From the NCBI GenBank assembly GCA_963855995.1, contig OY979717.1, positions 15,091,460 to 15,155,459 of the forward strand: a stretch of 64,000 bases of DNA, in the 5' to 3' direction. This document shows positions 20,942 through 59,442 of this stretch, piece after piece. Each line of letters begins with the position of its first letter. Within the stretch, counting starts at the first letter, position 1. Under the pieces are notes generated by a model. It had not been told where the DNA came from. It saw only the letters and a list, made by a program, of their open reading frames with translations, and did no database searches. The translations under genes were made by a program, and so were the position numbers. The DNA comes from Muricea muricata. Lineage: Eukaryota; Cnidaria; Anthozoa; Malacalcyonacea; Plexauridae.

Positions 20942-21167
20942 GTAAGATATACTGTTAATTTTTACTTGTATTTTGTTCTTTAATTTAAAATTTTATTTCT
21001 ACCGCTCTGTCAACTACTGACAATCTATACATTGAGAGCCAGGGGCAAGCTATTGTTTTATCTTATTGCCCTACTACACTAGTTTTTTCAACAATCATCT
21101 AAGCTTATATTTGTAATATTATGAGGAAAAAGTCCTATTATGCAAATGTATATTGGAAGTAAATATC

Positions 21168-21534
21168 TGTTACTTTCGGGTAACATAAAATCAGGTCTCG
21201 AATGCGCCTTTAATAATAATTGTCCCTTATACACACATGCAGTATCTTTTAATGCGATTCAACTAAACATTGTTTATGTTACAAATACAATGCATAAGAA
21301 CCACAGATAAAAAACCCACGTAGTTACAACTATAAGACGTTACAAACGAATAATCTGTACTTACGAAATCTGTATGCTATCTACCCGCGATACACTGAAA
21401 CCCTAACATGAAATATATGATATAAAATGTCAATCTCGTTGTCCACAACGTTTAAGAACGTTCACAATACGTTTTGTCTCGCCGACGACCTGGGTACTAA
21501 ACTAGCGACCACTGACCGGTGTTTGTTCTCAACA
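21168..21534 (-). repeat. 3' LTR of the BEL/Pao element
   Basis: Partner of the 5' LTR with the same 367-bp sequence as far as I can see. It is flanked on its outer side by the target duplication ATATC. Confidence 0.95.
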
Positions 21535-21547
21535 TACTCCCCCCAGT
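21535..21547 (-). promoter_or_regulatory. Polypurine tract
   Basis: On the minus strand ACTGGGGGGAGTA lies immediately before the 3' LTR, the place and composition expected of the primer for second-strand DNA synthesis. Confidence 0.8.
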
Positions 21548-21651
21548 GAACGTACCTTATAATGTTCACTCTTATACATAAGCATACTTGCGACAATCTG
21601 TTACTGTTAATGTTAATTATTTCAAGTTAACAATCAGTCTTGAGTTCAACA

Positions 21652-23460
21652 TCAAATTGTGCTTTCGAGGTAACACAGCTTGGTAATCGGTCTCACCAAC
21701 GTGGTTGATCTTGTTCTAATCTTTACAGATCTAACGTGGCCATCTTTCCCAGCATATACTTCTGTTACTCTACCCAAGGGCCACTGTCCGCGATGAGTAT
21801 TCTCTTCAGCAACCAACACTAAATCACCTGGCAACAAATTACGTTGAACCTTGTTCCATTTTTCTCTCTGTTGTAGGGTAGGTAAATATTGTCTTAACCA
21901 CCTCTTCCAGAAGAGGTTCGCCAGATACTGGACCTGTCTCCAACGACGTTTACAATAATTGTCGGTCTTGCAAAACACTCCAGGCGGAATATTTGGGTTA
22001 GGTCGGAGTAGCAGCAAATCATTCGGGGTGAGTGGTGTTAAATCACTTGGATGATCGCTGTTCGGCGTGAGAGGTCTGCTGTTAAGGATTCCTTCAACTT
22101 CGGTTGTCAATGTACTTAGAGTCTCGTCCGTGAGCACTTGCTCCTTAGCCAATGCCTTCAAAATCGTCTTCGTTGATTGGACCATGCGCTCCCATACTCC
22201 CCCCATATGAGGAGCGGCTGGCGGATTGAAGATCCATCTCACGTTCTTCTGTTGCAAGTAGTTTCCGATCTTGATTTGGTTCCAGCCATCGACGGCCTCG
22301 CGAAGCTCTCGCTCTCCAGCACAAAAGTTCGTACCATTATCGCTGCGAATAACCTTCGGATACCCTCGGCGGCTGATAAAGCGACGCAACGCGTTAAGAA
22401 AGGAATCTGTGTCGAGGGACTCGGCGATCTCGACGTGCACCGCTCGTACCGTTAAGCATGTGAACAAACACCCGTATCGCTTCACTTGGCTTCGTCTCTG
22501 GCGCACATTAATCGGTCCGAAGAAGTCGACACCGACGTAGGTGAAGGGAGGATCGTCTGGAGAGATCCGGTCTTGTGGTAAATTAGCCATCACTTGATCC
22601 ATACACCGAGCACTTCGACGCTTACATACAAAACAGTCGCCAATCACTCTCTTGATAGCTGCTCGCCCTTTTACGATCCAGTACGACCTTCTAAGCCTGG
22701 ATAGAATGTGTTCCTTACCGACATGTCCACTCAACTCGTGTTCTTCTCGCACGATCAGCTCAATCAGTTTGTGACGGTTTGGGAGTATCAGCTGATGTTT
22801 TTGGTCATATCCGATTGGTGCGTTCTGGAGTCTTCCGCCTACCCTTAACAATCCGTTCTCATCTATCCACGGGCTGAGTTTATAAATTAAACCAAACGAT
22901 CCTGACTTACGCAACGCGCGCTTCGCTCCTCGTACTTCAAAACTATCAGATCTTTGCGCCGACAAGGTAGACATAACTTCACCAAAGGTGCGTTGTTGTA
23001 CGTAATTGATCAATTTTCTTTCAGCTATTTGTATTTCTTCTAAGGTGAGTTTACTGTTTGAGCTCAGGTCGCGACCCGTTGTAGTCGGTGTTTGCCGCTT
23101 GATTAAATACTTTTTGAATCTCAGCAGCCACGCGATCGCCTTCTTTAGACGGAACCACGAAGAGTACCGGTTGATCATAACATCCAATGGCTCTAGTTTC
23201 TCATGATTGCCAATGATATGATGTGCCTGAAATTCTCTCTTCAGCTCTGGGTCATCCACCGTCACATCGGATGAGCTGCTCGGCGGCTCTGTCGGCCAGG
23301 AGTCTTCTTCGTGCCAAAGAAACTGCGGTCCCTTCAACCATCGCACGTTGTCCACCATCCTCCGTGCTGACAATCCTCTACTTGCGTCGTCTGCCGGGTT
23401 AAGATGTGTGTTCACATACCTCCACTGCGAGGGTACTGAACCATCGTGAATGATAGCCAA
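21652..23460 (-). CDS. BEL/Pao integrase
   Basis: 602 codons in the same frame as the reverse transcriptase part, beyond the TAA. The end of RNase H comes first (WRYVNTHLNPADDASRG). The zinc-binding HHCC domain follows (HELSGH at about 241-246, CFVCKRR at about 276-282), then the DDE core with Asp in GVDFFGP (about 312), Asp in RSDNGTNF (about 374) and Glu in MGGVWERM (about 424). The C-terminal DUF5641-like domain (GDLVLVAEENTHRGQWPLGR) ends about 110 bp before the polypurine tract. The integrase inserts the cDNA copy into the genome. The domain itself is unbroken. Confidence 0.93.
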   Translation of the reverse strand: MAIIHDGSVPSQWRYVNTHLNPADDASRGLSARRMVDNVRWLKGPQFLWHEEDSWPTEPPSSSSDVTVDDPELKREFQAHHIIGNHEKLEPLDVMINRYSSWFRLKKAIAWLLRFKKYLIKRQTPTTTGRDLSSNSKLTLEEIQIAERKLINYVQQRTFGEVMSTLSAQRSDSFEVRGAKRALRKSGSFGLIYKLSPWIDENGLLRVGGRLQNAPIGYDQKHQLILPNRHKLIELIVREEHELSGHVGKEHILSRLRRSYWIVKGRAAIKRVIGDCFVCKRRSARCMDQVMANLPQDRISPDDPPFTYVGVDFFGPINVRQRRSQVKRYGCLFTCLTVRAVHVEIAESLDTDSFLNALRRFISRRGYPKVIRSDNGTNFCAGERELREAVDGWNQIKIGNYLQQKNVRWIFNPPAAPHMGGVWERMVQSTKTILKALAKEQVLTDETLSTLTTEVEGILNSRPLTPNSDHPSDLTPLTPNDLLLLRPNPNIPPGVFCKTDNYCKRRWRQVQYLANLFWKRWLRQYLPTLQQREKWNKVQRNLLPGDLVLVAEENTHRGQWPLGRVTEVYAGKDGHVRSVKIRTRSTTLVRPITKLCYLESTI

Positions 23461-23505
23461 ACGATTTGCTACGAAGGTGTGGAATCTCGTTGATTCGTTT
23501 CGAAT

Positions 23506-24840
23506 TTACTGTAGAACAGACATTGAATCTGTCCAAAATACAGATTCTTCGAGGCTAAGTTCTAGCTCCTTTCGCAACATTTGATCAACCTGCACTGCTA
23601 CCACGGCAGCACAGAGCTCTAATCTGGGTATTGTCATGGGTTTAACATGTGCCAAGCGCGACTTCCCAAAAAGAAAGGCACAGTGAACTTTGCCTTCGTA
23701 GTTGGTCAACCTGATGTAGCTCACCGTCCCATAAGCGATGCGTGAGGCGTCGGCGAAGTGATGAAGTTGAGCACTTTTAACGCGTCCGAAGTCGGCGGGT
23801 TTAATGCATCGTTTTAGAGTTATTTCTGAAAGTTTGGGTAGGTCAGACAGCCAATTTTCCCACCTCTTTTGCTCATCTTCGCCGATTTCATCATCCCAAC
23901 CGATATTTCGTTTACACAGGTCTTGTAACAATTTCTTTGCAGGTAGTATTGCAGGCGCAACCATTCCAAGCGGGTCATAGACGGAGCTTGTCGTCGATAG
24001 TATTCCTCGTCGTGTAAGCGGTTTATCTTTGGAAACGGTCTTAACCTTGAACGTATCTGTCTTCACATGCCACTCAACTCCTAGCGTTCGTTCTGCTGGC
24101 AGTTCGTCCCTGTCCAGATCCAGGTCAACTACGGAGGCTGCCCGTTCACTCTCTGGGATGCTTTCGATGACCTCTCTTTTATTGCTCATCCATTTAGTTA
24201 AGTGGAAACCTCCTTTAGCCAGGAGTTTGCTCAAATCACCAGCTAGCTTTACGGCTTCGTTGACTGTGGTTGTAGATTTTAAACAGTCATCTACGTAAAA
24301 ATTACGTTTCACTGTTTTGACTACTTCTTTGTCAAAGCTGTCCTTGTGGTCATCGGCGGTCTTCCTAAGGCAGAAATTTGCGCAGCTCGGTGAGGACGTG
24401 CTGCCAAATAGGTGGACTTGCATTCTATAATCGATTGGTTCCTTCTTTAAGTCATCGTCCGGCCACCAAAGGAATCTCAAGGCATCGTGGTCTTCCGGCT
24501 TGGCGCGAACCTGGTTAAACATACCCTCAATGTCCGAGACTAAGGCGACTGGTTCTTCACGAAATCTGGTAAGTACGCCAACTAAGCTGTTAGTCAAGTC
24601 CGGGCCAGATAAAAGCTGATCATTTAGTGACGTTCCTTGGAACTTGGCCGTACAGTCGAACACCACACGCACCTTCCCAGGCTTGTAAGGGTGAAATACA
24701 GGGTGATGAGGCAAGTAAGAAATTATATCGTCGCTTTCTTCTTGCGGGACTCTCGCTGCATACCCTTTCTCTATGTATTCATGAATTGAGGTCTTGTATT
24801 TCTCAAATAATTCCTGATCTTTCTGGAGTCTTCGTTTCAA
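23506..24840 (-). CDS. BEL/Pao reverse transcriptase and RNase H
   Basis: 444 codons, again part of the polyprotein with no authentic start. Reverse transcriptase motifs are [11 protein letters not shown] (about 57-67), [13 protein letters not shown] with the first catalytic Asp at about 103, [13 protein letters not shown], and the catalytic YVDD at about 182-185. RNase H follows, with HHFADAS (Asp about 364), IPRLEL (Glu about 408) and WTDS (Asp about 438). All key catalytic residues are present. The frame stops at TAA (about 23506-23508) inside RNase H; the sequence downstream in the same frame is the direct continuation, so this is a nonsense change. Confidence 0.92.
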
Positions 24841-24854
24841 ACAACTTAGCCTCC

Positions 24855-26270
24855 TCAGCGCGAGCGATCGATTGTTTGGAAGGGAGGGTTGTGTTTCCAG
24901 GGTAGCCCCACTTGGTAATGCCCATCCACTAGCTCCGCGGACGCTTCGAGAATTTGCAACGCTTTCTTATCCTGGACCGACATAGCAGTTTTATGATCAG
25001 AAATTGATCCCCCAAAATCGGTTTCCCAGAAGCACTTAACTTGTTGAAGTAACGCGTCGTCACCTGCGGGTGTATCTCCAACGCGAATAAAATTCACGTT
25101 GAAGTTATCTTCTTCATCTTCTACCGTCTGCGTTGGTCCCATCACGGCCCATCCCAAAGGCGATCTAACGGCATAAGGTTCCCTTCTTTTCCCACGTCTT
25201 TGTTCCAAGACCCAGAACGCTTCGGGCACATCGCTTCCAATAAGGACTCTTACTTCTTTATTTTCAATACTATGCAGTTCAACGTCACTCAGATGCGGCC
25301 ATTTCTCAAGATCTTCAGCGGTGGCAATGCTTCGCTGCGAAACATTCAATTGATTCACGGTCCATACCCTTTGTAGGTCCAATGTATCAGCTCCATCCAG
25401 TGCCTCTACCACCAGTTGAACTTCGAAACCCTTTCTACTACTGCCTTGTCTCTCTTGGGTGGTTAGCGAAAAGTTTCTTTCTACCCCATCTATTTCTAGC
25501 TCTCTCACCAATTCCTCGTCGCAGAGTGTCACATCCGAACCGCTGTCCAGGAACGCGTAGGTCTCAATAACTTTGTTCCCATCCTTCCCTTTCACCTTTA
25601 CAGGCACGACGCACAGACGCACGCCACCTCCTCTGTTAATTGAATTACAGTTCCCATCTTCGAGCTCTCTCTTTTCCGTCCTTTGACTTCCCCCATTCGT
25701 TTGTATTTGAGCATCATCTTTCGTTTTTTGGTTTGGGTTCTCTTGGTTAGACGGATGGAGTATAGTGTGATGTCTTCTGTTGCAACCACTGATTTCGCAC
25801 GCCTTTCCCTTCATGCAGCCCTTCGCCATGTGACCTACCGTCAGGCAATTGTCGCAGAGCTTCGCTCGCCGCACAATCTTAATTTTCTCCACATAAGGCT
25901 GTTTCTGGAATTTTTCGCACTTGGTTAGTTGATGCTGCCTGTTACAGAATGAACATTGGCCCATTGCGAAGTCCTCTTTGGACATGGGAGAAGGATTATC
26001 GTCACCCTCGGGATTCCTGTCCCCATCTTCTTCCCCTTGAATATTGAAATTTGACTTGGGTCCTTGTTTTTGCTGAGGCCCTTTATTTTTGCTCCTCTCA
26101 TCTCGGAGAATTCCAGCGAAGACGGGATTGTTAGCAGTCTTGGCTCTTGTCATCACGAACTTTGATATGTGATGCAACCGTGGTTTTTCCCCTGCTTCGA
26201 GTATAGCCTGTGCTTTATCTAACCATTTGACTCTTAGGTGATATGGTAATCTTTCTACGACTCTTCTCAA
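24855..26270 (-). CDS. BEL/Pao Gag zinc knuckles and aspartic protease
   Basis: 471 codons open from 26270 with no true ATG, so this is the continuation of the polyprotein and not a separate gene. Zinc-binding segments lie at about residues 106-118 ([13 protein letters not shown]), 139-152 ([14 protein letters not shown]) and 158-168. The retropepsin-like domain (DUF1758/A17 type) has its active site at LDSGSD, about 241-246. The protease should release the mature proteins from the polyprotein. The frame runs into TGA at 24855, and family sequence resumes in another frame a few codons earlier, at a run of C near 24890. Confidence 0.9.
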
Positions 26271-27655
26271 GTAGCAGCACTGTTTATTTCATCCAAGTAT
26301 CCGATTGCCTTTAGCGTATTTTCGCAATCTCTCAGTTGGTCTGCGAACGCCAATAGCTCTACCCCGTCTGTAGGCTTTATCGGGGCACCTTCAGTTACAC
26401 TTTTCACGAAGGAAGACGCTATCATGTACGGATGACCGAACCTCTCCTTCAGCAGTTGTCTTGCGGTTTTATAGCCAACTAACGGATCCATGGTGACGCA
26501 ACTCTTGATCACCCTTCTTGCTTCTCCTATGCAATATTGAACAAGGTAGGTTAGTTTTTCGTTTTCGTCCGATGCGTTTCGCTCAATGTTGTTTTCAAAT
26601 GATCTGATAAAACTCCAGTACTGAAGAGGATTTCCATCAAACTTCGACAACTCTGGTTTAGGCAAAACAAACCCTTGTCGGATGGTAGCTGCTAGGTTCT
26701 GTAAGTTGATTTTCTCATTCTTTGTTTCTAGTGGTGGCATTGGTCTGGCATGTTCAACTCCTTGGATTGGCAGTGTAGGTTTTTCTTCCGTCGTGAACAA
26801 GGCTGGTTGGCCTGTTAAATGCAATCTGTCAATATCATTGGTTAGACAAGGGTCCGCTTGCTTCTCCTGACTAGTTTCATCCTGGGGCATCGGTAACCAA
26901 CCTTGCACACGAGGGTTCAACTTAGTTATACCAGCTATAGATTTGTTTTCTTCATTCATTTCATTGCACTCCGTGACTTCTTCATAAATTCTGGCTTCCA
27001 GATCCGCCCGATCGATTTCGTTTTGCGCCTCTAGCATTTCCCGTTTCATCTTCATTTCTTCCTCTCTCACAACCAACTCTTGCTGTTGCTTTAACTGTTT
27101 CATCTTGAGTCGGGCTACGGCTTGCTTGGCCCTCACCCTTCTAATCTCAGAACTCGAAGCTGAACTCGCAGCAGAGCTCATATGCGATCCGCTGTTTCTT
27201 CTAGAACCAACTCTGCTTATTGAATCTTCTGGTCTTATTTCAAAGTCTTGCTGTTCCTTCCTATTTGAGTGTTCCTTCAACACTTGGTTTATCATAGTCT
27301 CTAGTTCAAACTTCCTTCGCAGCTGCTCATCATATGAACTCATGGCTTCAATTTGATCATCTGGTCTTGTCCCCAAACACTGAGAATATTCTAAATGGGC
27401 GCGTTGGTACCGTCTAAATGTAACTGATATTTTGTCTAAATACCCATTTAATTCTTCTTCGGCCACCAAATCCTCAGCTAATACTTGCTGAATATCTGCG
27501 TATAGCTTAGTTAATTGCCCAATATGTCCGGACTTTGAGTTTTTTAGCTTCTTGATTTTGTCCAACAAGATCTTTTCATCAAGTGTAGTGTTACAGTCCT
27601 CCTCAGTATCTACTATAGTAGGACCACCACGCATATCCGGATCTTGATCCTCCAT
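26267..27655 (-). CDS. BEL/Pao Gag N-terminal part
   Basis: 462 aa, starting MEDQDPDMRGG shortly after the 5' LTR. An N-terminal acidic and helical region and a Lys/Glu/Gln-rich coiled-coil-like stretch (about residues 150-225) precede the BEL/Pao Gag domain (DUF1759 type): FDGNPLQYWSFIRSFENNI at about 335-355 and AARQLLKERFG-like TARQLLKERFG further on. Gag forms the particle that packages the element's RNA in the cytoplasm. The frame ends with TGA at 26267, just where family members continue, and the continuation is found in the next frame from 26270. Confidence 0.9.
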   Translation of the reverse strand: MEDQDPDMRGGPTIVDTEEDCNTTLDEKILLDKIKKLKNSKSGHIGQLTKLYADIQQVLAEDLVAEEELNGYLDKISVTFRRYQRAHLEYSQCLGTRPDDQIEAMSSYDEQLRRKFELETMINQVLKEHSNRKEQQDFEIRPEDSISRVGSRRNSGSHMSSAASSASSSEIRRVRAKQAVARLKMKQLKQQQELVVREEEMKMKREMLEAQNEIDRADLEARIYEEVTECNEMNEENKSIAGITKLNPRVQGWLPMPQDETSQEKQADPCLTNDIDRLHLTGQPALFTTEEKPTLPIQGVEHARPMPPLETKNEKINLQNLAATIRQGFVLPKPELSKFDGNPLQYWSFIRSFENNIERNASDENEKLTYLVQYCIGEARRVIKSCVTMDPLVGYKTARQLLKERFGHPYMIASSFVKSVTEGAPIKPTDGVELLAFADQLRDCENTLKAIGYLDEINSAAT

Positions 27656-27735
27656 ACTCGTATTACATGAAGTACGAGTACGAAACAGTAATAAATTTTA
27701 TTCTTGCTGGTTTACAGTGAAGATTTCTTGAATAT

Positions 27736-28102
27736 TGTTACTTTCGGGTAACATAAAATCAGGTCTCGAATGCGCCTTTAATAATAATTGTCCCTTATAC
27801 ACACATGCAGTATCTTTTAATGCGATTCAACTAAACATTGTTTATGTTACAAATACAATGCATAAGAACCACAGATAAAAAACCCACGTAGTTACAACTA
27901 TAAGACGTTACAAACGAATAATCTGTACTTACGAAATCTGTATGCTATCTACCCGCGATACACTGAAACCCTAACATGAAATATATGATATAAAATGTCA
28001 ATCTCGTTGTCCACAACGTTTAAGAACGTTCACAATACGTTTTGTCTCGCCGACGACCTGGGTACTAAACTAGCGACCACTGACCGGTGTTTGTTCTCAA
28101 CA
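27736..28102 (-). repeat. 5' LTR of the BEL/Pao element
   Basis: 367 bp, starting TGTTGAGAAC and ending AAAGTAACA on the minus strand. No difference from the other LTR was seen by eye. It should contain promoter and polyadenylation signals, but no TATA box is obvious. A tRNA primer site with the usual TGG start is not evident right after it. Confidence 0.95.
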
Positions 28103-28159: not shown

Positions 28160-29115
28160 TGAGGTATATGCCCTCAATCCTCATTATTCCCTTTTTTATG
28201 TGTTTGCTCTTATTTCTCAATCTTAAAATGTCTTTAAAAATTAAAATGACTTCACAAACTACATCCAGCTTAAATCTGAAGTCATTCGGAAGTGGACGCC
28301 GAAAAGAAAATTTACTTTGAATCCAAGCATTGTTCAACTCATAATATAATGCAATATTTGCAAATAACCTTCCATCATTTCAATTTTTGTGTGCCTGGAT
28401 GTCTTTCTCAGTCCTAAAATGCATTTCAAAATCAAAATGACTTTACAACTACATCCAATTCAAATTTGAAGTCATTCGGAAGTGGACGCCGAAAAGAAAA
28501 TTGACATTAAATGCAAGCCATGTTACTGTTATGATGTAATATTTGCAAATGACCTTCCTTTATGTCAATTTTTTTGTGCCTGGATGTCTTTCTCAATGCT
28601 AAAATTTCTTTCAAAATTAAAATGACCTTACAAACTACATCCAATTCAAATTTGAAGACATTTGGAAGTGGACGCCGAAAAGAAAATTGACGTTGAATGC
28701 AAGCCATGTTACTGTTATGATGCAATATTTGCAAATAACCTTCCATTATTTCAATTTTTTGTGCCTGGATGTCTTTCTCAATCCTAAAATGCATTTCAAA
28801 ATCAAAATGACTTTAAAAACCACTTCCAGTTCAAATTTGAGGTCATTTGGAAGTGCACGCCGAAAAGAAAATTGACATTGAATGCAAGCCATGTTACTGT
28901 TATGATGCAATATTTGCAAATAACCCTCCTTTATAAATTATCTATTTTTTGTGCCTGGATGTCTTTCTCAATGCTAAAATGCATTTTAAAATCAAAATGA
29001 CCTAACAAACTACATCCAATTCAAATTTGAAGTCATTCGGAAGTGACGCCAAAAAGAAAATTGACATTAAATGCAAGCCATGTTACTGTTATGATGTAAT
29101 ATTTACCATTTGTGT
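28160..29115. repeat. Tandem array, about 5 units of 185-190 bp
   Basis: A GACGCC-GAAAAGAAAA block recurs at about 28295, 28485, 28671, 28856 and 29045, giving spacings of 190, 186, 185 and 189 bp. Each unit also contains GTGCCTGGATGTCTTTCTCA and TGCAAGCCATGTTACTGT. The first unit is the most diverged and the last is cut short. The array starts about 50 bp outside the right LTR of the BEL element. Open frames inside it are by-products of the repeat. Confidence 0.9.
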
Positions 29116-31928: not shown

Positions 31929-32852
31929 CTATGGCGATAAAATAGGCTCAGTATCTCCTGCCGTGTGCTTTCTAGCGTAACGTTCAGATGTTGTCGGTTC
32001 AATATTGTTCATCTCAACTTCACAATTTGGATTGCTTTGTAGCGCCACTAATGGCACTGGATCTCTATTATCTTGTACTGGGATGAAACCTCGAGTTACT
32101 GGTCCACAAATTTCCCTGTTTGAAAATACCACGGAAGTAGCATGGCGGGTTCGCCAGTACTTCCTGACATAGAACACAATAAACAGAGAAAGTAAAAATA
32201 TAACAATTAGGCCAATGATAACGTATGCCCCAGCATTTTTGCTGGATTTTTCAGCATTCAGATGCTCGCTGACGTTGGAAACACCACCGTACCAGAAAAG
32301 AGAAACGATTATGACACCGACTGAAAATATTGCCATAAGAAGTACATAACAAAAATGAATCTTATAGCAATCCATTTTAAAGCAAGGCCAATTAATAGTG
32401 CAACATGGGATCTGATTCGTTCCTTCACTACTCACAAATCTATGCGATCCCCGACGTTGAGCAATCTCATTGGAATCGTCGGCATTATTTAATCTCCCGG
32501 GACGATTGTCAGCTTGTCGATTTTGTTGCGAATGGGAGGTGCTGTCGGTAGACGATTTTCTGGTATCTCTACCATCTCTTTCGGTCTCATTCGTTGTTTC
32601 CACTCCCTCAAATTCTTTGACACGACGCACGAGATCACGTCTCTTTACGGCATTCAAAATATTTTTGAAGTACTCAAGTTTCTCTTCGCTAATTCGGTCT
32701 TCATGGCGCAGTTGCTTGAACAAATTATGTCCACTTTTTACGGCTTCCGGTTTTCGACTTTCCTCAATTCCACAGATATTAACAAGACTTTCTAAATCAT
32801 CTGGGTGTAAATCACGACTTATCTCGTGCAACATAACATTAAAACTATCCAT
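31929..32852 (-). CDS. Membrane-anchored death effector domain protein (copy A)
   Basis: Intact single-exon frame of 307 aa. Residues about 3-83 read as a death effector domain: helix-rich, ending with KRRDLVRRVKEFE that contains the RxDL motif (71-74) of DEDs. A polar Ser/Thr/Asn/Arg-rich linker (about 85-148) follows, then a cysteine patch (CC at 150-151, C157, C162, C168). Two hydrophobic helices (about 169-188 ending SLFWYGG, and 208-229) are separated by a 20-residue loop, and a tail of about 75 residues follows. With a short loop, both ends should face the cytosol. DEDs assemble with FADD, caspase-8 and FLIP-type proteins; a membrane-tethered adaptor or decoy role is inference. Same architecture as the copies at 55748 and 57926 but clearly diverged. 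No TATA box or intron seen. Confidence 0.85.
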   Translation of the reverse strand: MDSFNVMLHEISRDLHPDDLESLVNICGIEESRKPEAVKSGHNLFKQLRHEDRISEEKLEYFKNILNAVKRRDLVRRVKEFEGVETTNETERDGRDTRKSSTDSTSHSQQNRQADNRPGRLNNADDSNEIAQRRGSHRFVSSEGTNQIPCCTINWPCFKMDCYKIHFCYVLLMAIFSVGVIIVSLFWYGGVSNVSEHLNAEKSSKNAGAYVIIGLIVIFLLSLFIVFYVRKYWRTRHATSVVFSNREICGPVTRGFIPVQDNRDPVPLVALQSNPNCEVEMNNIEPTTSERYARKHTAGDTEPILSP

Positions 32853-39245: not shown

Positions 39246-40762
39246 GATCCAAAAAAGTTGAGATCAAAAAAGGTTGAGTGATCCAAAAAATTTTCGCCCA
39301 ATTTCAGTTTTACCAGTGGTATCTAAAGTTTATGAGCGGTTAGTTCATAACCAACTTGCATCGTATTTTGATGAAAATAACCTGTTGTAGATTTCAGTCA
39401 GGTTTTCGAAAGAAACACTCAACAGAAACGGCGGTAACCTATTTTGCAGACCAAATTCTCATGGGTATGGATAAAGGGCTAGTGACGGGTGCCGTTTTTA
39501 TTGATCTAGCTAAGGCATTCGACACAATCGACCACGATGTCTTAATTCATAAGCTGAAACATTATGGCGTATCTGATGACAGTCTATTATGGTTTAAGGA
39601 TTATCTCTGTGCTAGGAAGCAGTTTGTAGCTATTGATTCGCATAGATCTGAAGAGTTGGATATTGCTTGTGGGGTACCGCAAGGGTCAATTCTTGGCCCG
39701 TTATTGTTTATCATTTACATCAATGATTTATCATCTTGTATGCGAAACTGCTCAGTCAGTATGTACGCAGATGATACAGCAATATACTTTGCGGCCTCGA
39801 CGGTTGACGTGGTGAATGAAAACATCAACGAAGATTTAAATTGCTTATCTGAGTGGTTGAAAGATAATAATTACCTGGTGCTGAATATCTCCAAAACCAA
39901 GTGTATTTTGTTCTGCTCACAGAGGCACGGTGAACGAAACAGAGCTCTTACCGTGAACTTTTTTGGGTCATGTATTGAAAGTGTTATCACTTTTAAGTAC
40001 TTAGGTGTAGTATTCGACAGTCATATGACGTGGAAAGATCAAGCGGATCATGTATACAAAAAGGTTGCAGTACGAGTTAATGTTTTACGGCGTATTGGAA
40101 CATTTCTAACGGAGAAAGCAGCATTACATGTTTACAACGGTATTATCCTGCCAGTGTTCGATTACTGTGACATTACCTGGAGTAGTCTTCTGAAACAAGA
40201 TGAGGATAGATTACAGCGATTGCAGCATCGTACCGCAAGAATTATAACATTGAGTGAAAGATCATCTGAGGCGATAGAAAAATTAAAATGGTCTTCATTG
40301 AACTGTAGACGCTCTTACCATAAAGCTATATTAGTTTATAAATGTCTACATTCTTTAGTCCCGAATTACTTTTCTAATTATTTTAAGAAATTTAGTAGTG
40401 TACATAGCTACAATACTAGACATAAAAATAGATTAATACTTCCCAAAGTTAAATATAATTTTGGAAAAAATACTTTTATCTTTAGTGGGGTGCAGGCTTA
40501 CAATATGCTCCCAGATTATGTGATGAATGTTGAGTCCATTCACACTTTCGCACGTCTTGTACGTACGAATTGTGTGAAATGAGCTATCTTATTGATGTGG
40601 AACTTAGAAGTGACGGAACTGATTGCGATAATATTTTGTACTAATATATTATATTTTTGTAATTTCTACATAGTATATATCTAGATACAGGGCCCCCATG
40701 GATACCAGCCTTCGTGCTGAAAGGGCCACCCTGTTTAAATAAAGTTTTTTCCATTCCATTCC
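39246..40762 (+). mobile_element. CR1/Jockey-like LINE (B), inserted in the left arm of the DNA element
   Basis: The plus-strand copy is flanked by ATTTT at 39241-39245 and 40763-40767. It starts inside the reverse transcriptase (ISVLPVVSKVYERLVHNQ) and ends with AATAAAG and CCATT repeats. The matching right arm of the host element shows the empty site GGATTTTTCAAAG, which proves the boundaries. Confidence 0.9.
39356..40582 (+). pseudogene. LINE B reverse transcriptase
   Basis: A 408-codon open frame. From about residue 12 it reads as reverse transcriptase: RFQSGFRKKHSTETAV, FIDLAKAFDTIDHDVL (first Asp), CGVPQGSILGPLLF and MYADDTAIYF (YADD active site), then the usual C-terminal FDYCDITWSSLL, LQHRTARII and FSGVQAYNMLP to a proper stop. 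The first residues are out of frame: true upstream sequence is in another frame from about 39295, so one shift lies near 39385. The endonuclease is missing through 5' truncation. The catalytic domain is otherwise undamaged, so the copy is fairly young. Confidence 0.92.
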
Positions 40763-43198: not shown

Positions 43199-44818
43199 TT
43201 ACCGAACATTCCACATGGCTTGTTTACATTTTGACAGATATTTAGCTCGCTTTCTTAGATATTTTTCGTCGATGTGGTGTTTCTGCAACTCGGGAAGTTT
43301 GGAGGGTTGGGTGTGGAGCATACTATTCGGTGTGAGCATTGGCATCTGCACATCGTCCTCTAAGTAACACAGTGGACGTCGTTCACGGCTCAATGAGCTA
43401 CATCTCAATGTCTAACACAGCTTCTTCGAGTTCGTACCACGTGAGAACACCATTTCCGATGGATTTATAGAACGAATTCTTGAATAACCCGATTAAACGT
43501 TCAAATTCCCACCATGGGGTGCGACTTAAATTGAAACGCCATTCGATCGACATGTTTGCCAATAGGCTATTAAGATTCTCGTCCTGTCTCACCAGAAGAA
43601 TCCACTTCGCAGCGGCTTTGAAGGTTTTCGCATTATCCGAGTAAGTTCATTTTGGTCTACCCCTTCTAGCGATGAATCTCTTTAAACTCATTATGAATTC
43701 TTTCGTATTAACGATCTTACGACGCCGAGATGTACGGCTCTTGCCAAACTGCAAGCATAAAGCAATAGATAAGCTTTAGCCTCTTTCTTTGTCTTGGTCC
43801 CGTATTTGATCGGTCCGGCGAAGTCCACCCCGATCGCCTCGAATGGTGTAGTGCCTTGCGTTCTCGTGGTCGGTAAGTTTCCAGGAGGCGGTGCTTGATA
43901 AGCTGTGGCTCGGAATCTTTTACATCCATGGCAATCCGATCTTATTTTCTTAACTAGGCTGAGGAGCCGTGGAACCCAGTAATGTTCGCGAACCTTGGCT
44001 ATGGTCATGGCGACTCCCCCGTGTAAGGTTGATAGATGTGCTTCACGAACTAAGCATGAGGTAAAAGGATGGAAATCTGGGAGATACACTGGGTATTCAC
44101 CGACGATTCTGCCTCTACACTCTAGGATTTCCATTCTATTCTCTTGCAGGTTTAAACGCTCTTCGTCGTCTTGGAATCGGACATCATCCTTCGCTGCCTT
44201 TTGGGCACGTCGTATCCACCATTCTCTTAGTTGTTGAACTGCACGGCTGTTAATGGGGCCGAATTTTCTTTCTCTAGTTTTACGCCTACAGTTCCTTATG
44301 AAGCAGTGTTCCCGATTACACAGAACTTTCGGTAAACTATACTTCTCAAGAAGTCCATCCAGCATGTCGTCAACAACCACTGCTGCTTTGAAAAATTCTT
44401 TAACCACTTTCGCTTCTGATTGACTGTCTGGCGTTGGTTCTAGGACGCGTTGAACTGGCCATTCGTTCGGGTTGCTTAACCATTTCGGACTCTTTTGCCA
44501 CAACCTTTTTGCGTTGACCTTTCCACCCCGACTCCCGATATCAGCGGGATTCTCCGATAACGGAACATGATGCCAAATGACGTCCCCATGCTGACGAATC
44601 TTTTCCACTCGGTTTGCAACGAATTGTCTGTAGTCTCCCTGTTCGTTTATCCAGTATAAAGCTACCGTTGAATCAAGCAAACAATGGACAGTTGCGTGAT
44701 GGTCAGTGAGCGCTTGTTGGACGTTAGTTGCTAGATTGACGGTCATGTGTCCCGACACGAGCTCTAGGCGTGGAATTGTTAAATTTTGTTTTGCAATTCG
44801 CGATTTTGAACAGATCAA
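43199..44818 (-). pseudogene. Old BEL/Pao RNase H and integrase, upper part
   Basis: The frame 44818-43691 covers RNase H ([35 protein letters not shown]), the HHCC domain ([19 protein letters not shown]) and the first integrase Asp ([11 protein letters not shown]). It continues in pieces at 43592-43398 (EWRFNLSRTPWW) and 43408-43199 (YLEDDVQMPMLTPNS). The frame is lost around the second Asp, near 43620-43690. It ends at the LINE insertion point. Confidence 0.85.
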
Positions 44819-45904
44819 TCCTTAGGTCACTCTGTGTCCTCCTGCTTAACTACTGCTTACACGACTGCGCACACACCGTTTGAACTCGCATTTCCGAATC
44901 CGTGCAGGGTCAGTTCTTGAATGGGTTGGTGGTATGGAGTCAAAGAACGGGGCATAGTATAGGTCTCGAGGCTCCCGTTCCAGTCCTTCCATTGCTTCTG
45001 TAGGGGCTCAGGTAAGCTGGTATCCCAGGAAGCTTTGCTGTCACCTGCTGAACGACAAATTAACTTTTCAATCAGGGTGGTGGGTGAAGCTAAACCAAGA
45101 GGATCGTAGACTCTCGCTAGTTTGGACAGTACGTTCCGTTTCGTTGCAGGTTCGGTATCTGGAGTAAGAGTGACGCTAATGGTGTCTTGTTCTCGGTCCC
45201 ATGGTACCCCTAAGAGTTTCCCATCGGACTGTCCGACTCCTCCTAACTGGGTTTTTGCGCAGGTTAATTCGTTTCCCTCTGTTCACGATTCTCTCTTTGG
45301 CTCTAGCTCGGGCGCATTTGAATGCCACTTATGGATTATGAAAGCTGCATCGTTAAAAATCTCGGCAACTTTCTCTTTGCGAGTCTGAGTTTCGTCGACT
45401 GTAGTCCCCCCCCGAAATAAATTCATCGACATACAGCCCTTCACGTAGCTGCTTAACTAACTTTGGATAGCGTTCTTCCATGCATTGAGGTAATGATTAA
45501 TAACTCCCCCGAGAAGGAATAGGGAACAAGTAAGTTCGAATAGGGCGGTAAAACGGTACACTTGTATACTATCCAATCCAGGTTCCTTCCAGAGGAATCG
45601 CAGTGAATCTCGATCTTCAGCCGTTATTCGTACTTGCAAGAAGGCCTTCTTTCTTGGTTAGCATTAAAGGTGCTGGTTCAATCACCCCCTCCTTCAGTTG
45701 TTCCTGTATGATGTCATTATATGCACAATACTGTCCGTTTCTCTCCAGCTTCCAGGTTCCCCTTCCATGGTAATCTGGTCTCATACCAGCCTGCCTGATC
45801 TCGACTGAGATGGTCTTCAAATTCATAATGCACAGTTTTTTGATCATTTTCATTTCTGTCCGCCAGTCCAAGTACATCCAATGCACATAACTGTTCGTAT
45901 TCAA
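44819..45904 (-). pseudogene. Old BEL/Pao reverse transcriptase, internally deleted
   Basis: Fragments in several frames: the start of the domain (45904-45617, ending LKEGVIEPAPLML), then, after a jump, VRITAEDRDSLRFLWKE and LGGVINHYLNAW (45639-45457). The part that should hold the first catalytic aspartate is missing, so an internal deletion has removed the active site. Further broken pieces run to 44819. Confidence 0.75.
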
Positions 45905-46460
45905 GGGTAGTAGACTGAGTAAGCAGGATGGGCCCTTCCCGTTCTTTCCCTGGAGACATCAGGGTCCAACCCAATAGGGTTTTCTCGGAAACTGGTTCTC
46001 CAGGCAGCCCTATCTTTTGGGCAGTGGTTGTTTTGATCTTGGAATAATCACTAGCCCCGAGCACCAAGTGAATGGGTATCTGCTTACGGGTGTCAGGATC
46101 TTCAAATTTAGCACCATGCAGATGCTTATATTTCTGTTGGAGATGGGTGTAGTTGGGGTTGCTGACCTTCATTAATTCTGGTTTGTCTACTTTAGATACT
46201 TCAAGTTCAAACTTCTTATCATGTGATTTCATGTTTGCTGAATAAATTGCTACTCGAGTGCTTGTGGAGCCTAACATAATTTCGATTCGTTTTGTTTTGA
46301 CTGCTTTAGGTTTTCTCTTCAGTGCATTTGTTAAACTGCTGGAAGCATATGAGCTACCAGCTCCTGTATCAAGCAATGCATGTGTTTTTATGCCATCTAC
46401 TTTGGCAAACAGAACAGGATAAACAACTTCATTATCCCCCGGTGTGGACTGTTGTGGCAT
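45717..46460 (-). pseudogene. Old BEL/Pao aspartic protease region
   Basis: 248 codons with the protease active site ALLDTGAGSSYAS, followed by the family segment IPIHLVLGASDY and TLLGWTLMSPG. It ends at a stop near the start of the reverse transcriptase. Confidence 0.85.
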
Positions 46461-46469
46461 TCTCAGTTT

Positions 46470-46934
46470 CTAAGTCGACTGCTTTGGGTGAATTGCAAAT
46501 TGAAGTATGGTGACGTTTATCACATAATCTACACTTTTGCATTCAGATGCTCTGTGAGTGGGCCCTGTACAGTTAAAGCAGAGTCGTTTTACAGCTAGAT
46601 ACTTCTTCCTGTCTTCAAATGTTAGAACAGTGTCACATTCAGCTGATCTATGATTTTCAGAACTACAATATACACACTTTCGATGACTTTTACTTATCTG
46701 AGATGATTTCTGCTGCGTCGAGAACTGATAGCCCGCTTGTTTTCTTTCAGGTTTCTTCTTCCCGTCATCAGGTTTCTGTGCATCAAATGGATTCCTTCGA
46801 GTCCATAGCTGCAGTGTTTCTGTCACCTGGATGTAGTTCCATTTATCCCACTCTGGGTCATTTCGCACCAAATCACCCCGTATATATGGAAGTTTGTCCA
46901 GTGTCATTGCAACTGTTCCATTGACAGCATCCAA
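46470..46934 (-). pseudogene. Old BEL/Pao zinc-knuckle region
   Basis: The frame encodes the C-terminal part of Gag with two CCHC-like knuckles, CVYCSSENHRSAEC and CFNCTGPTHRASEC. It shifts near 46500 before joining the protease frame. Confidence 0.85.
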
Positions 46935-46938
46935 TGTT

Positions 46939-47530
46939 TCAATGTCTCAAGTGACCGTACACAATATGATAGTTGCTCATAGAACTCACCAATTTTTTTG
47001 GATTTGAAGTTGGCATATGTGGAAGATCTAAAATCTCGTTGACGTATGTCTTTACAATTTCACTTTCCTTACCGAATCGCTCTTTGAGAATTGAAACTGC
47101 CCTGTTGTAACCTTCCACTGTGTAAGGTAGAGCTTCGATTGCACGCTTTGCCTTATCACATAATAGCTCTCTCAAGTATGTAAACTTTGTCACGGGTGGT
47201 ACACTCGACTTGTCAATTGTCTCCGAATACTGTCCCCAAAATCTCGGCCAATCTCCATATGATCCATCGAATGTTGTTATTGTCAATTTCGGAAGTTTCG
47301 CTTGCAGTTGCTTAACAGAAATTTCACTTGACGTCGCCGAAGATGACCCTGTTGGCTCTGATTCCAAGAGTTCAGCTTGTAGCTTTTAGCCTCGCGTAAA
47401 GTTCCATTTCAAAGTCCATCTTCTTCTGGTGATCGTTGTTTGCTCGTTTCTCTTGCGCGTCGTTTAACCACTGTTCGAGAAATTGACTTTCTCGTCGCCT
47501 TCGTTTATTTTTTCCTTGATGGCACTTTCT
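46939..47530 (-). pseudogene. Old BEL/Pao Gag
   Basis: The frame 47367-46939 contains PKLTITTFDGSYGDWPRFWG and SILKERFGKESEIVKTYVNE, the Gag domain of the family. The N-terminal helix (FLEQWLNDAQEKRANND) is readable in other frames up to about 47530. Frame breaks occur near 47365 and 46940. Confidence 0.8.
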
Positions 47531-55747: not shown

Positions 55748-56596
55748 TTAATTGGCGTCGTCAAAAGCGTCGTCAGTGTTAATATACAAATTAGCGGAGT
55801 CTAAATCTTCATCATGATCAACATGACGGCAAAATACAGCGTTGGGTATGCCTACGTTTCTAGCTTTAGATTTGCCAGCTCTTTTCGTATCTCTGCTTTT
55901 AGAGACGCTTTCTTCGCGAACTTCCTGTATTCCATTTTGATTCCCTGCTGATAGCGCATATTTTGATCGACGATTTCGACGTTTTTGTATATAACATATT
56001 GACAAAAGACATGCCAGAAATAATACAATAATCGCACATAATACATATGGACCAGATTTTCTTACATGCTCATCGGATTTAATGGCCGCACTGACTTTAG
56101 GTACATCAGCATACCAAAATAGAGTGCTGAATAGGAGACATGTTAGGAAGAATGCACTGGCCAAAACATACGACCAGTGGGGACAGCGACACTTACACTT
56201 ATAACACGATATCAGCATACACGGGCATTTGAGTGTACAACATGGACTCGTATTCACATCGGAACTGCGAGCATTAGGTGTGATACTCGAAGTCACTGAA
56301 ACAACACTAGTTAATGTAGAAGAAGCATCATCTTGCGTTCCGTTTTCAAACTTCTCAATTAGCCTGACCAAATCTCGTCGCTTCGGACTCAGGTTTCTCA
56401 GCAGGTCTTTCAGACTATCAAGTTTGTGTTCGTTGATACAATCTCTCTTCATGAGATTATCAAACAAACTTATTCCATCTTTCATTGTCGCTCGCTGACA
56501 TTCAGGAATATTACACATATGTACTAAACATCGAACTTCATGCTCGCTTAATTGAACACTGAGCCGGTTCAACAGTACCCGAAAATGATCCGTCAT
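55748..56596 (-). CDS. Membrane-anchored death effector domain protein (copy B)
   Basis: Intact single-exon frame of 282 aa starting MTDHFRVLLN. The DED spans about 1-84, ending PKRRDLVRLIEKFE with RxDL at 73-76. A Ser/Thr-rich linker (about 87-117) follows, then eight cysteines between 119 and 138 (CCTLKCPC...CYKCKCRC) directly before helix 1 (about 142-162, ending TLFWYADVPKVS) and helix 2 (about 183-203). The tail is basic, then acidic. Juxtamembrane cysteines could be acylated or bind metal; that is inference. It differs from copy C at about 11 of the first 86 residues, a recent duplicate about 2.2 kb away on the same strand. The start is fixed because no earlier in-frame ATG exists before the upstream sequence loses similarity. 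Confidence 0.87.
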   Translation of the reverse strand: MTDHFRVLLNRLSVQLSEHEVRCLVHMCNIPECQRATMKDGISLFDNLMKRDCINEHKLDSLKDLLRNLSPKRRDLVRLIEKFENGTQDDASSTLTSVVSVTSSITPNARSSDVNTSPCCTLKCPCMLISCYKCKCRCPHWSYVLASAFFLTCLLFSTLFWYADVPKVSAAIKSDEHVRKSGPYVLCAIIVLFLACLLSICYIQKRRNRRSKYALSAGNQNGIQEVREESVSKSRDTKRAGKSKARNVGIPNAVFCRHVDHDEDLDSANLYINTDDAFDDAN

Positions 56597-57925
56597 CGCT
56601 GTAGAGCTAGGATGAACTTCTGTGTACTTCTTACGGCTTCCAAATGATGTTCTTTGAGGAGTCGTACACGGGTATTTTGTTCGTAATACGTAATCAAATC
56701 ATTTCAGTTACGGAGTAATTAATAACATACAAGGAAGTTTCGTGTCTGTGATTGGCGATTCCGTGACCCTCGAACTTTTGTAGCTCGCACGACGGAGTCG
56801 GCTGCCTGGTTTAAAAATGGCTATTATATACAAAAACATAAAATAATATTTACAATAAAATTTTCGTAATAGGCCCGTGTATTAAATTGTTCTTAATTAC
56901 TTTCAAAATATAAACTTCGGGTGCTGACGCTGTATTGATTGTTTGTTTGCATGTGTGACTATGTCAATGTTTACATATGTCGATGGATGTTATTATATTT
57001 TGTGGTTGATATTTTATCTTTTCAATCTTAATTTTAGAAAAAAAAAACGTGCACTATCAAAAAGCTCATAAAAATTACATATAACAAATTTTAATGGCCA
57101 CCTTGATCTTTTCATTTCTTAGGCTAAGCGAGTTATGAACTTTTGAAATCATATTTTCCTGCTTATTGCATATGGCTTTATTTTTATGTTAAAACAAGCA
57201 TCTGCCACTTAAATTCTGGAAAAATCACGCCTCTGCACGCATGTCTTTGAACATGTAGAACATGAAATTACAAACACATCCTTTTTACTTTAAAACTCAA
57301 TCGCGTCGGCGTATGCTTATGACTCAATTTATGACGCTATTCATAAGATCGCTGATATCTCTGAAAATATTTACGCTATCGCAATAGGACAAACACCATT
57401 CGATTTCTAATGAATTTCTGTTTTAAATGTGCCTTGTTGTTTCCTATTCAATCTTATATATGTAACGTGCATAGAGAGCAAAAGACAAACTTTCGGAGAG
57501 GTCTCTCTTTATTTCTAACTTACTCACAACTGAATCGTATTTACAATTTGAACTATTTATATGGTAATATGTTTACACGTGAATCTTTTTAGGTATTTTA
57601 CAGGACCCAATGAAAGTATTGATACACTGGGAAAACTCATGCATGCGTGTTTTCCCAATGACTATGCTTCTATTTATACGGACTAAAAGTACATATGTTG
57701 TCAGATGTTAATTAGCTATTTTCCACTCTTGGTAAAATCCCGCGTTTCTAAACGCTTAGATCATACGCTTAGATCACGGCTCACGGGATATTGGATGTAT
57801 TAATAGTTTGTGCAATGAATTGTGAATATATGCAGACATTGAATGACTCACTAATATTGTTAAGTAGATAATTAAATGTTATTAATTCTGACTAAAAACA
57901 AGCCACCACAAATATTTTCATATCT
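56597..57925. other. Spacer between the tandem DED genes
   Basis: No gene recognised. It should contain the promoter of copy B (just above 56596) and the 3' UTR of copy C (just below 57926). An A9 run lies near 57041. Confidence 0.35.
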
Positions 57926-58792
57926 TTACACAGGAAGTCTAACATTAATTATTGAATTACTGGGTTTAGGGTCTTGATCAGTGTCAGTATCGCAATTACC
58001 GGCGTCTTCATCATGATCATATCGGGGAAATAAAGCGTTGGATATGCCTTTGTTTCTAGTTTTAGATTTGCCAACTCTTTTCGCATCTTTGCTTTTGGCG
58101 TCTCTTTCTTCCAAAACTTCCTGTGTTCCATTTTGATTTCTTGATGATAGTGCAATTTGGCTTGATCCAGGATTTTGACGTTTCTTTATATAATATATCA
58201 ACAACAGGCATGCCAGGAATAATACAATAATCGCACAAAGTATAAATGGACCAGATTTTCTCACATGCTCATCGGATGTAATGGCCGCGCTGACTTTAGG
58301 TACATCAGCATACCAAAATAGAGCGATGGATAGGAAGCATGTTAGGAAGAATGCACTAGCCAAAACATACGACCAGCGGGTTTTACAGCGACACTTATAA
58401 CATAATATCACCATACACGGGCATTTGAGTGTACAACATGGACTGGTATTCACATCGGTACTGCGAACAACAGGTGTGATACTCGAAGTCACTGAAACAA
58501 CACTAGTTAATGTAGAAGAAGCATCATCTTGCGTTCCGTTTTCAAACTTCTCAATCAGCCTGATCAAATCTCGTCGCTTCGGACTCAGGTTTTTCAGCAC
58601 GTTTTTCAGACTATCAAGTTTGTGTTCATTGATACAATCTCTCTTCATGAGATTGTCGAACAAACTTATTCCATCTTTTATTGTCGCTCGCTGAAATTCA
58701 GGAATATTACACATATGTACTAAACATCGAACTTCATGCTCGCTTAATTGAGCACTGATCCGGTTCAACAGTATACGAAAACGATCCGTCAT
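57926..58792 (-). CDS. Membrane-anchored death effector domain protein (copy C)
   Basis: Intact single-exon frame; an in-frame ATG seven codons earlier (58813) exists. I choose MTDRF at 58792 because it aligns with the start of copy B. About 288 aa from that start. DED about 1-84 with PKRRDLIRLIEKFE; Ser/Thr-rich linker; cysteine patch CCTLKCPCMVILCYKCRC; helix 1 ending ALFWYADVPKVS; helix 2 FILCAIIVLFLACLLLIYYI. The tail diverges from copy B after about residue 205 and has a different C-terminus through frame drift, so selection is probably weakest there. It lies about 630 bp from the last EXOSC3 exon, same strand. Confidence 0.87.
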   Translation of the reverse strand: MTDRFRILLNRISAQLSEHEVRCLVHMCNIPEFQRATIKDGISLFDNLMKRDCINEHKLDSLKNVLKNLSPKRRDLIRLIEKFENGTQDDASSTLTSVVSVTSSITPVVRSTDVNTSPCCTLKCPCMVILCYKCRCKTRWSYVLASAFFLTCFLSIALFWYADVPKVSAAITSDEHVRKSGPFILCAIIVLFLACLLLIYYIKKRQNPGSSQIALSSRNQNGTQEVLEERDAKSKDAKRVGKSKTRNKGISNALFPRYDHDEDAGNCDTDTDQDPKPSNSIINVRLPV

Positions 58793-59442
58793 AGCTGCAG
58801 AGGATTTAGTCAAACTTCGATTTATTTCTCAAATACGGCTTCTACCACATCCTAATTGATTTGATAAAATGTAATATGGGTAACCCCCATTTAACTTTAT
58901 TTTTATACAAACGACACAATCATTGATCACTGGTGCATAACTGGTAACTGAATTATTGAAACACCTACATATCAGCCCACTTAAATTCCTCAAAACAACA
59001 GACTAGACATCGTAGAACATCAAATTACAAATACAACATTTCCCTTTAAAAACCTGAGAAACAACACGTACTCACACAACATATATTTAAAAACCTGAGC
59101 ATACACTTCATTGCATGTCTATAAATCCTACCCGTTTAAAAACATATTTGCCAAAGCATCCCTCCTATAAAGATGATTGAAATTATAATATAAATTTAAT
59201 GCATGAAAAATCTTTGTTATGACAACCAGACATTATAAAACTTTCCAGAGAGATGAAAATCATGAAATATTACTGTCGATGTAAGCATATGTACTTTGTC
59301 TTGTTGTTACTCATATTCCCTCTAATATTTTACCGAGACCCAGAAATATTATATCCACGGGAATCTACCATAAATATGTGCACCCACTGGATATAACCGT
59401 CTTAAAATAAAGGATTTAAAATGATCGCCTAATAAAGCTGTT
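58793..59442. other. Spacer between EXOSC3 and DED copy C
   Basis: Holds the EXOSC3 3' UTR and the upstream region of copy C. No TATA box or other clear signal recognised. Confidence 0.35.

Follow-up and report, generated by a model that had tools for sequence, protein, structure and literature searches.

Three genes on the minus strand of a genomic stretch from the octocoral Muricea muricata (assembly GCA_963855995.1, contig OY979717.1, positions 15,091,460 to 15,155,459; 64,000 nucleotides, hereafter the window) encode proteins with the same order of parts: an N-terminal death effector domain (DED), followed by a polar linker, a stretch that bears cysteines, a first hydrophobic helix, a loop, a second helix, a basic patch and a variable tail. 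A sequence-only reading of the window had described three intact genes here, and each of them, designated A, B and C, is indeed an open frame from ATG to stop; the plus strand at the same coordinates contains many stops, and the coding strand is the minus strand. The features are listed below (aa, amino acids; TM1 and TM2, first and second predicted transmembrane segments).

31929..32852, minus strand: gene A, 307 aa (with stop), diverged paralogue; intact ATG-to-stop frame
32607..32843, minus strand: gene A DED, residues 4-82; PF01335 E 4.5e-16, 59.3 bits; six helices modelled
32352..32441, minus strand: gene A cysteine-bearing juxtamembrane stretch, residues 138-167; cysteine counts against shuffles, weak singly
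32166..32351, minus strand: gene A predicted TM1 168-186, loop, TM2 211-229; hydropathy, low-confidence model helices
55748..56596, minus strand: gene B, 282 aa (with stop), DED-linker-Cys-2TM protein; intact ATG-to-stop frame
56342..56584, minus strand: gene B DED, residues 5-85; PF01335 E 7.1e-14, 52.3 bits
56174..56263, minus strand: gene B cysteine-rich juxtamembrane stretch, residues 112-141; cysteine counts against shuffles
55988..56173, minus strand: gene B predicted TM1 142-160, LFWY 159-162, 24-aa gap, TM2 185-203; hydropathy, low-confidence model helices
56599..56600, minus strand: possible 3' splice site AG two bases 5' of the gene B ATG (CTCTACAG/cgATG), suggested by sequence
57926..58792, minus strand: gene C, 288 aa (with stop), tandem paralogue of B; intact ATG-to-stop frame
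58538..58780, minus strand: gene C DED, residues 5-85; PF01335 E 2.8e-13, 50.3 bits
58373..58462, minus strand: gene C cysteine-rich juxtamembrane stretch, residues 111-140; cysteine counts against shuffles
58187..58372, minus strand: gene C predicted TM1 141-159, loop, TM2 184-202; hydropathy
58795..58796, minus strand: possible 3' splice site AG two bases 5' of the gene C ATG (CTCTGCAG/ctATG), suggested by sequence

Searching the whole genome (453 Mb in 74 contigs) with the Pfam DED profile PF01335, whose curated cut-off is 35.9 bits, returned 26 matches, 20 of them above the cut-off; genes A, B and C account for three of the 26. We inspected 21 other DED loci and found three with two hydrophobic segments (L017, L019 and L020), one with a single segment (L025) and 17 with none, in a check that covered the DED-bearing exon only, so that a helix on another exon would escape it, and that left out two matches in short frames (C12:788324 and C12:795002). 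The three loci with two segments are member D (L017, contig C6) and members E and F (L019 and L020), a tandem pair on contig C2 about 2 Mb from the window. All three carry the layout of the window genes, which upholds the idea of a shared family. At E 0.1, a full-length search with gene B (7 matches; 11 of 11 candidates scored) recovered only the six family genes, a count that is a lower bound. Intact members thus number at least six: A and D, together with the tandem pairs B/C and E/F. A tree of these genes strongly supports E and F as sisters; A and D sit on long branches whose placement is unsure.

Two of the DED frames elsewhere in the genome (L009 on C16 and L014 on C9) share, by eye, a conserved stretch of about 75 aa after the DED, around 'YVEVKSGGSY'. 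A viral origin of the family was also considered and rejected: when IMG/VR was scanned with the alignment of the family, a short pattern turned up in 41 stretches, and tblastn found relatives encoded in 0 of the 41.

All six members match PF01335 above its curated cut-off in the genome search, with one DED stretch each in A, B and C. The RxDL motif is likewise present in all six, and the acidic partner of the charge triad (E/D-RxDL) in four. The N-terminal DED with RxDL that had been read from the window therefore holds across the family. The fold of residues 1-90, set in advance as the point on which this assignment could fail, was modelled for gene A as six helices, with block-mean predicted local distance difference test (pLDDT) values of 81-91 over residues 1-80 and 68 over residues 81-90; the best match of this domain, in both sequence (E 6.2e-9) and fold, is the DED of FADD. 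At E 0.1, none of the six members matches the death domain PF00531 or the caspase domain PF00656. RING, SAM and TRADD-N are absent from the 12 Pfam families matched by any of the six, although the diverged TRADD-N clades treated in part of PMC8195603 may escape Pfam.

The other Pfam matches in A, B and C (DUF898, AgrB, ELO, TMEM154, Mucin, Bax1-I, DUF4131, MFS_1 and others; E 0.0048-0.89) all fall under their cut-offs. Across the six members at E 0.1, AgrB and Bax1-I each occur in two and ten other non-DED families in one each, the latter including the bacterial death-like domain bDLD3 (E 0.023). Because these matches are below cut-off and mostly differ among members, we take them as chance similarity of hydrophobic or low-complexity sequence.

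Hydropathy places two hydrophobic segments in each of the six members, in agreement with the two membrane helices first proposed. The shared helix 1 ending is somewhat broader than the LFWY originally noted, namely [LV]FW[YF]: LFWY in A, B and C, and, among the other three members, VFWY once and VFWF twice. The loop is present, if not very short as had been supposed, with 24 aa in five members and 22 aa in D between the best 19-residue windows. As for the cysteine-rich patch, enrichment is clear when the 30 residues before helix 1 are summed over A, B, D and E (20 cysteines, equalled in 0 of 10,000 shuffles). Taken singly, it is weak in A, D, E and F: the cysteine count over 45 residues was reached in 6 of 5,000 shuffles for B, 12 for C, 119 each for A and D, 144 for E and 179 for F.

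The cysteine-bearing stretch and the two helices (the Cys-2TM part) were also compared between members; 11 of the 15 pairs score above all 1,000 locally shuffled controls, and for the remaining four the controls reached the score once (A-F), three times (C-F) or five times (B-E and C-E). Judged from these comparisons, the Cys-2TM module is homologous across the family, in addition to the DED. Net charge runs from +1 to +4 before helix 1, from -1 to +1 in the loop and from +2 to +6 after helix 2, where all six members have a basic stretch. By the positive-inside rule, this distribution favours a topology with both termini in the cytosol.

We propose that these genes form a lineage family of double-pass proteins in which a FADD-type DED, held at the cytosolic face of a membrane, docks other DED proteins and so concentrates or ties up caspase-8-type signalling, a reading to which we assign a probability of roughly 0.5. 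The DED itself would be the starting point, supported by the profile in six members and by the model in one. The two hydrophobic helices, the 22-24 aa loop and the basic stretch after helix 2 would form a hairpin with both ends cytosolic, and the cysteines beside helix 1, lying on the cytosolic side, could be S-palmitoylated and thereby target the protein to particular membrane patches. As its fold suggests, the DED may then bind DED partners, and the variable C-terminal tail, which diverges quickly between B and C, may provide regulation or specificity. Initiator caspases may in this way be recruited to an organelle or sequestered there, as the sequence-only reading suggested. The sequence favours neither activation nor restraint of caspase-8-type signalling.

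The same genome also encodes candidate partners. A FADD-like gene (L011) has its DED exon on contig C10 and, downstream of it, a death-domain frame (Death E 1.5e-16). In a caspase-8-like gene on C12, DED exons are followed downstream by a caspase frame (C14 E 1.2e-32); in both genes, we infer that the DED exons are joined to the downstream frames. The caspase frame (L016:341-1213, minus strand) reads QACRA at the active-site motif, possibly a true change from the usual QACxG. A precedent for bringing a death-fold adaptor to a membrane comes from Drosophila STING, where, according to part of PMC13144350, FADD is brought to an oligomeric membrane protein by a different contact.

Several observations weigh against this proposal. 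The position aligned with F25 of FADD is N, H, H, H, Y and Y in the six members, and is thus replaced in all of them. In a lysate assay described in part of PMC11074299, FADD F25R and F25Y gave no caspase-8 activation, F25 being needed there; its replacement in the family means that classical FADD-like assembly may not work. According to the same portion of that study, D74 of the FADD RxDL motif was required in the lysate assay and not for TNF-driven death in cells, and a section of a review (PMC4558505) assigns FADD self-association to a patch of F25, L28 and K33 and questions the role of RxDL. With the F25 contact missing and the RxDL role questioned, we put the docking of DED partners at about an even chance.

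The structure models of the membrane part also count against the proposal. In the gene A model, helices span residues 164-189 and 205-243, with block-mean pLDDT of 40-75 over residues 161-240, and the membrane part of gene B, modelled alone, is helical at low confidence (mean pLDDT 60.0). The same is true of the divergence between recent copies, in which constraint is weak: whole-gene comparison gives a ratio of non-synonymous to synonymous divergence (dN/dS) of 0.81 for B/C (dS 0.169, dN 0.137) and 0.57 for E/F (dS 0.072, dN 0.041), the linker plus cysteine stretch of B/C reaches 0.98 and its tail 1.51, and the TM1-loop-TM2 part of E/F stands at 0.79. Other parts are lower, with 0.50 for the DED, 0.47 for the cysteine stretch alone and 0.35 for TM1-loop-TM2 in B/C, and 0.35 for the DED, 0.58 for the linker, 0.20 for the cysteine stretch and 0.79 for the tail in E/F. 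These ratios rest on few substitutions (in the DED, 5 synonymous and 10 non-synonymous for B/C, 3 and 4 for E/F). They suggest that the DED is kept in both pairs and the membrane part in B/C, not clearly in E/F, and that the B/C tail runs free. Between subfamilies, DED dN is 0.53-0.69, with dS at least 1.37 or saturated.

Replacement of F25 in every member would also fit membrane-bound decoys that sequester FADD or caspase-8 and hold back death signalling as FLIP- or BAR-like inhibitors do, the activating contact being missing; the presence of one DED, and of neither a caspase nor a death domain, in the frame points the same way. The comparison of contacts covered only the F25, E19 and RxDL faces, and caspase-8 surfaces of the same lineage may have changed in step, so we regard decoys as a tentative possibility. 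A non-apoptotic membrane scaffold, whose DED would serve PEA-15-like binding of kinases or in trafficking and not caspase control, is unlikely given that the DED of FADD is the nearer in sequence (E 6.2e-9).

The frames might instead belong to larger receptor or adaptor genes, the remaining exons having gone unrecognised. The coding frames of the family have no intron, and in this respect the earlier label of single-exon genes stands. The acceptor-like AG two bases 5' of the ATG in B and C makes an intron in the 5' untranslated region or an unseen upstream exon possible, so that the label extends to the coding frame only. In each of the six members, however, the frame opens with an ATG at a constant position ahead of the DED and closes with a stop inside a tail whose length varies, and the window yields no match to A, B or C beyond themselves other than one chance-level stretch (E 0.89), although unrelated exons would not show in such a comparison. 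We consider this explanation improbable.

In their DNA, B and C are 87.6% alike over 840 nt (55773-56606 against 57978-58802), from 10 bases before the ATG to approximately the end of the coding part, and outside this block only two short pieces (46 and 23 nt) are alike; the likeness of E and F, in contrast, exceeds 2 kb and includes the flanks. An mRNA-derived copy, replacement of the flanks by mobile elements, or conversion confined to the coding part would each explain such abrupt edges. That the genes are young, partly decaying duplicates or retrocopies devoid of function, as the confined B/C likeness, the B/C tail ratio of 1.51 and several retroelements in the window might suggest, is improbable in view of the six frames kept open across long divergence and the layout retained by the subfamilies.

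The proposed membrane-anchored, FADD-type DED can be set beside known systems. FADD lacks membrane helices and carries a death domain at its C-terminus. The family resembles it in a single N-terminal DED from residue 1, an MDxF-like start and RxDL, and differs in lacking a PF00531 match and in the replacement of F25. Caspase-8/10 and FLIP combine tandem DEDs with a caspase or pseudocaspase domain, in contrast to the one DED stretch each in A, B and C and the lack of a PF00656 match in all six members. BAR (BFAR), a membrane-associated regulator of apoptosis with a DED-like part, carries RING and SAM, which were not matched in the six members. BAP31 is a multi-pass membrane protein tied to caspase-8, in which a variant DED follows the membrane helices and forms a coiled coil, not a six-helix bundle. 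MAVS, a membrane platform, joins a CARD through a linker to a single C-terminal tail anchor; the coral proteins likewise combine a death-fold domain, a linker and a predicted membrane anchor, and differ in having a DED, not a CARD, and no single tail anchor.

To call the known DED proteins soluble, with BAR as the main exception, was too strong: part of PMC8195603 describes about 50 proteins of Crassostrea virginica with a cysteine-rich ectodomain, one membrane helix and an intracellular DED-TRADD-N, and reports DED-TRADD-N proteins from cnidarians as well. The oyster proteins, as portrayed there, share with the coral family a membrane-linked DED, a cysteine-rich part, expansion in one lineage and a variable C-terminus. 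They differ in that their cysteine part is N-terminal and extracellular and their DED follows a single membrane helix and is fused to TRADD-N, whereas the coral proteins start with the DED, place the cysteines between that domain and the first of two helices, and show no TRADD-N by Pfam. Anthozoan nucleotide-binding, leucine-rich-repeat receptors with 3-5 N-terminal membrane helices, presented in part of PMC5094078, are an anthozoan innovation that likewise brings to a membrane an immune pathway protein otherwise found in the cytosol, and differ in being NACHT-LRR receptors with another layout. An Acropora survey (PMC4715348) describes, in the part available, a caspase-8 with two DEDs and cites FADD binding, and that part makes no mention of a DED-2TM protein. 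In the open-access literature we found neither a description of the DED-Cys-2TM layout nor a close homologue with a named function, and one may exist elsewhere. The family adds this layout to the membrane DED proteins already known, and its function is an informed guess. A bolder version, a long shot on present evidence, is that octocorals evolved a platform dedicated to caspase-8-type signalling at a membrane, in which a palmitoylated double-pass anchor holds a DED where MAVS has a CARD, with paralogues matched to different triggers by their fast-changing tails.

Elsewhere in the window, a BEL/Pao long terminal repeat (LTR) retrotransposon on the minus strand (21162-28102) has 373-bp terminal direct repeats that are 99.7% identical, together with a Pao peptidase and weak reverse transcriptase and integrase matches, and is a recent insertion. 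Its end adjoins a tandem array of 4.8 copies with a period of 185 bp (28213-29104). Another Pao-like element, this one broken (43691-47385), has its matches to Pao peptidase, integrase and protease spread over different frames, and a reverse transcriptase frame at 39344-40582 (RVT_1 E 1.1e-28) presumably belongs to a non-LTR element. The mitochondrial contig (C74, 19,292 bp) contains a 987-aa frame (L042:5636-8599) with MutS_V (E 2.7e-33), MutS_III (E 1.1e-14) and HNH domains, and ARAGORN found a methionine tRNA as its only tRNA; octocorals are marked by a mutS gene in the mitochondrial genome and by having just one tRNA there, which narrows the cnidarian origin to this group. A second COX1-like stretch with one stop, on a contig of nuclear size (C1:38414782-38416095, L040), probably represents mitochondrial DNA copied into the nucleus.

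The place at which DED proteins organise caspase-8 into assemblies helps to decide between death, inflammation and survival. For work in cnidarians, the genome offers six genes of known position, together with candidate partners, as test material. A DED permanently fixed to a membrane would show how an early-branching animal couples the caspase-8 pathway to an organelle or to the cell surface.
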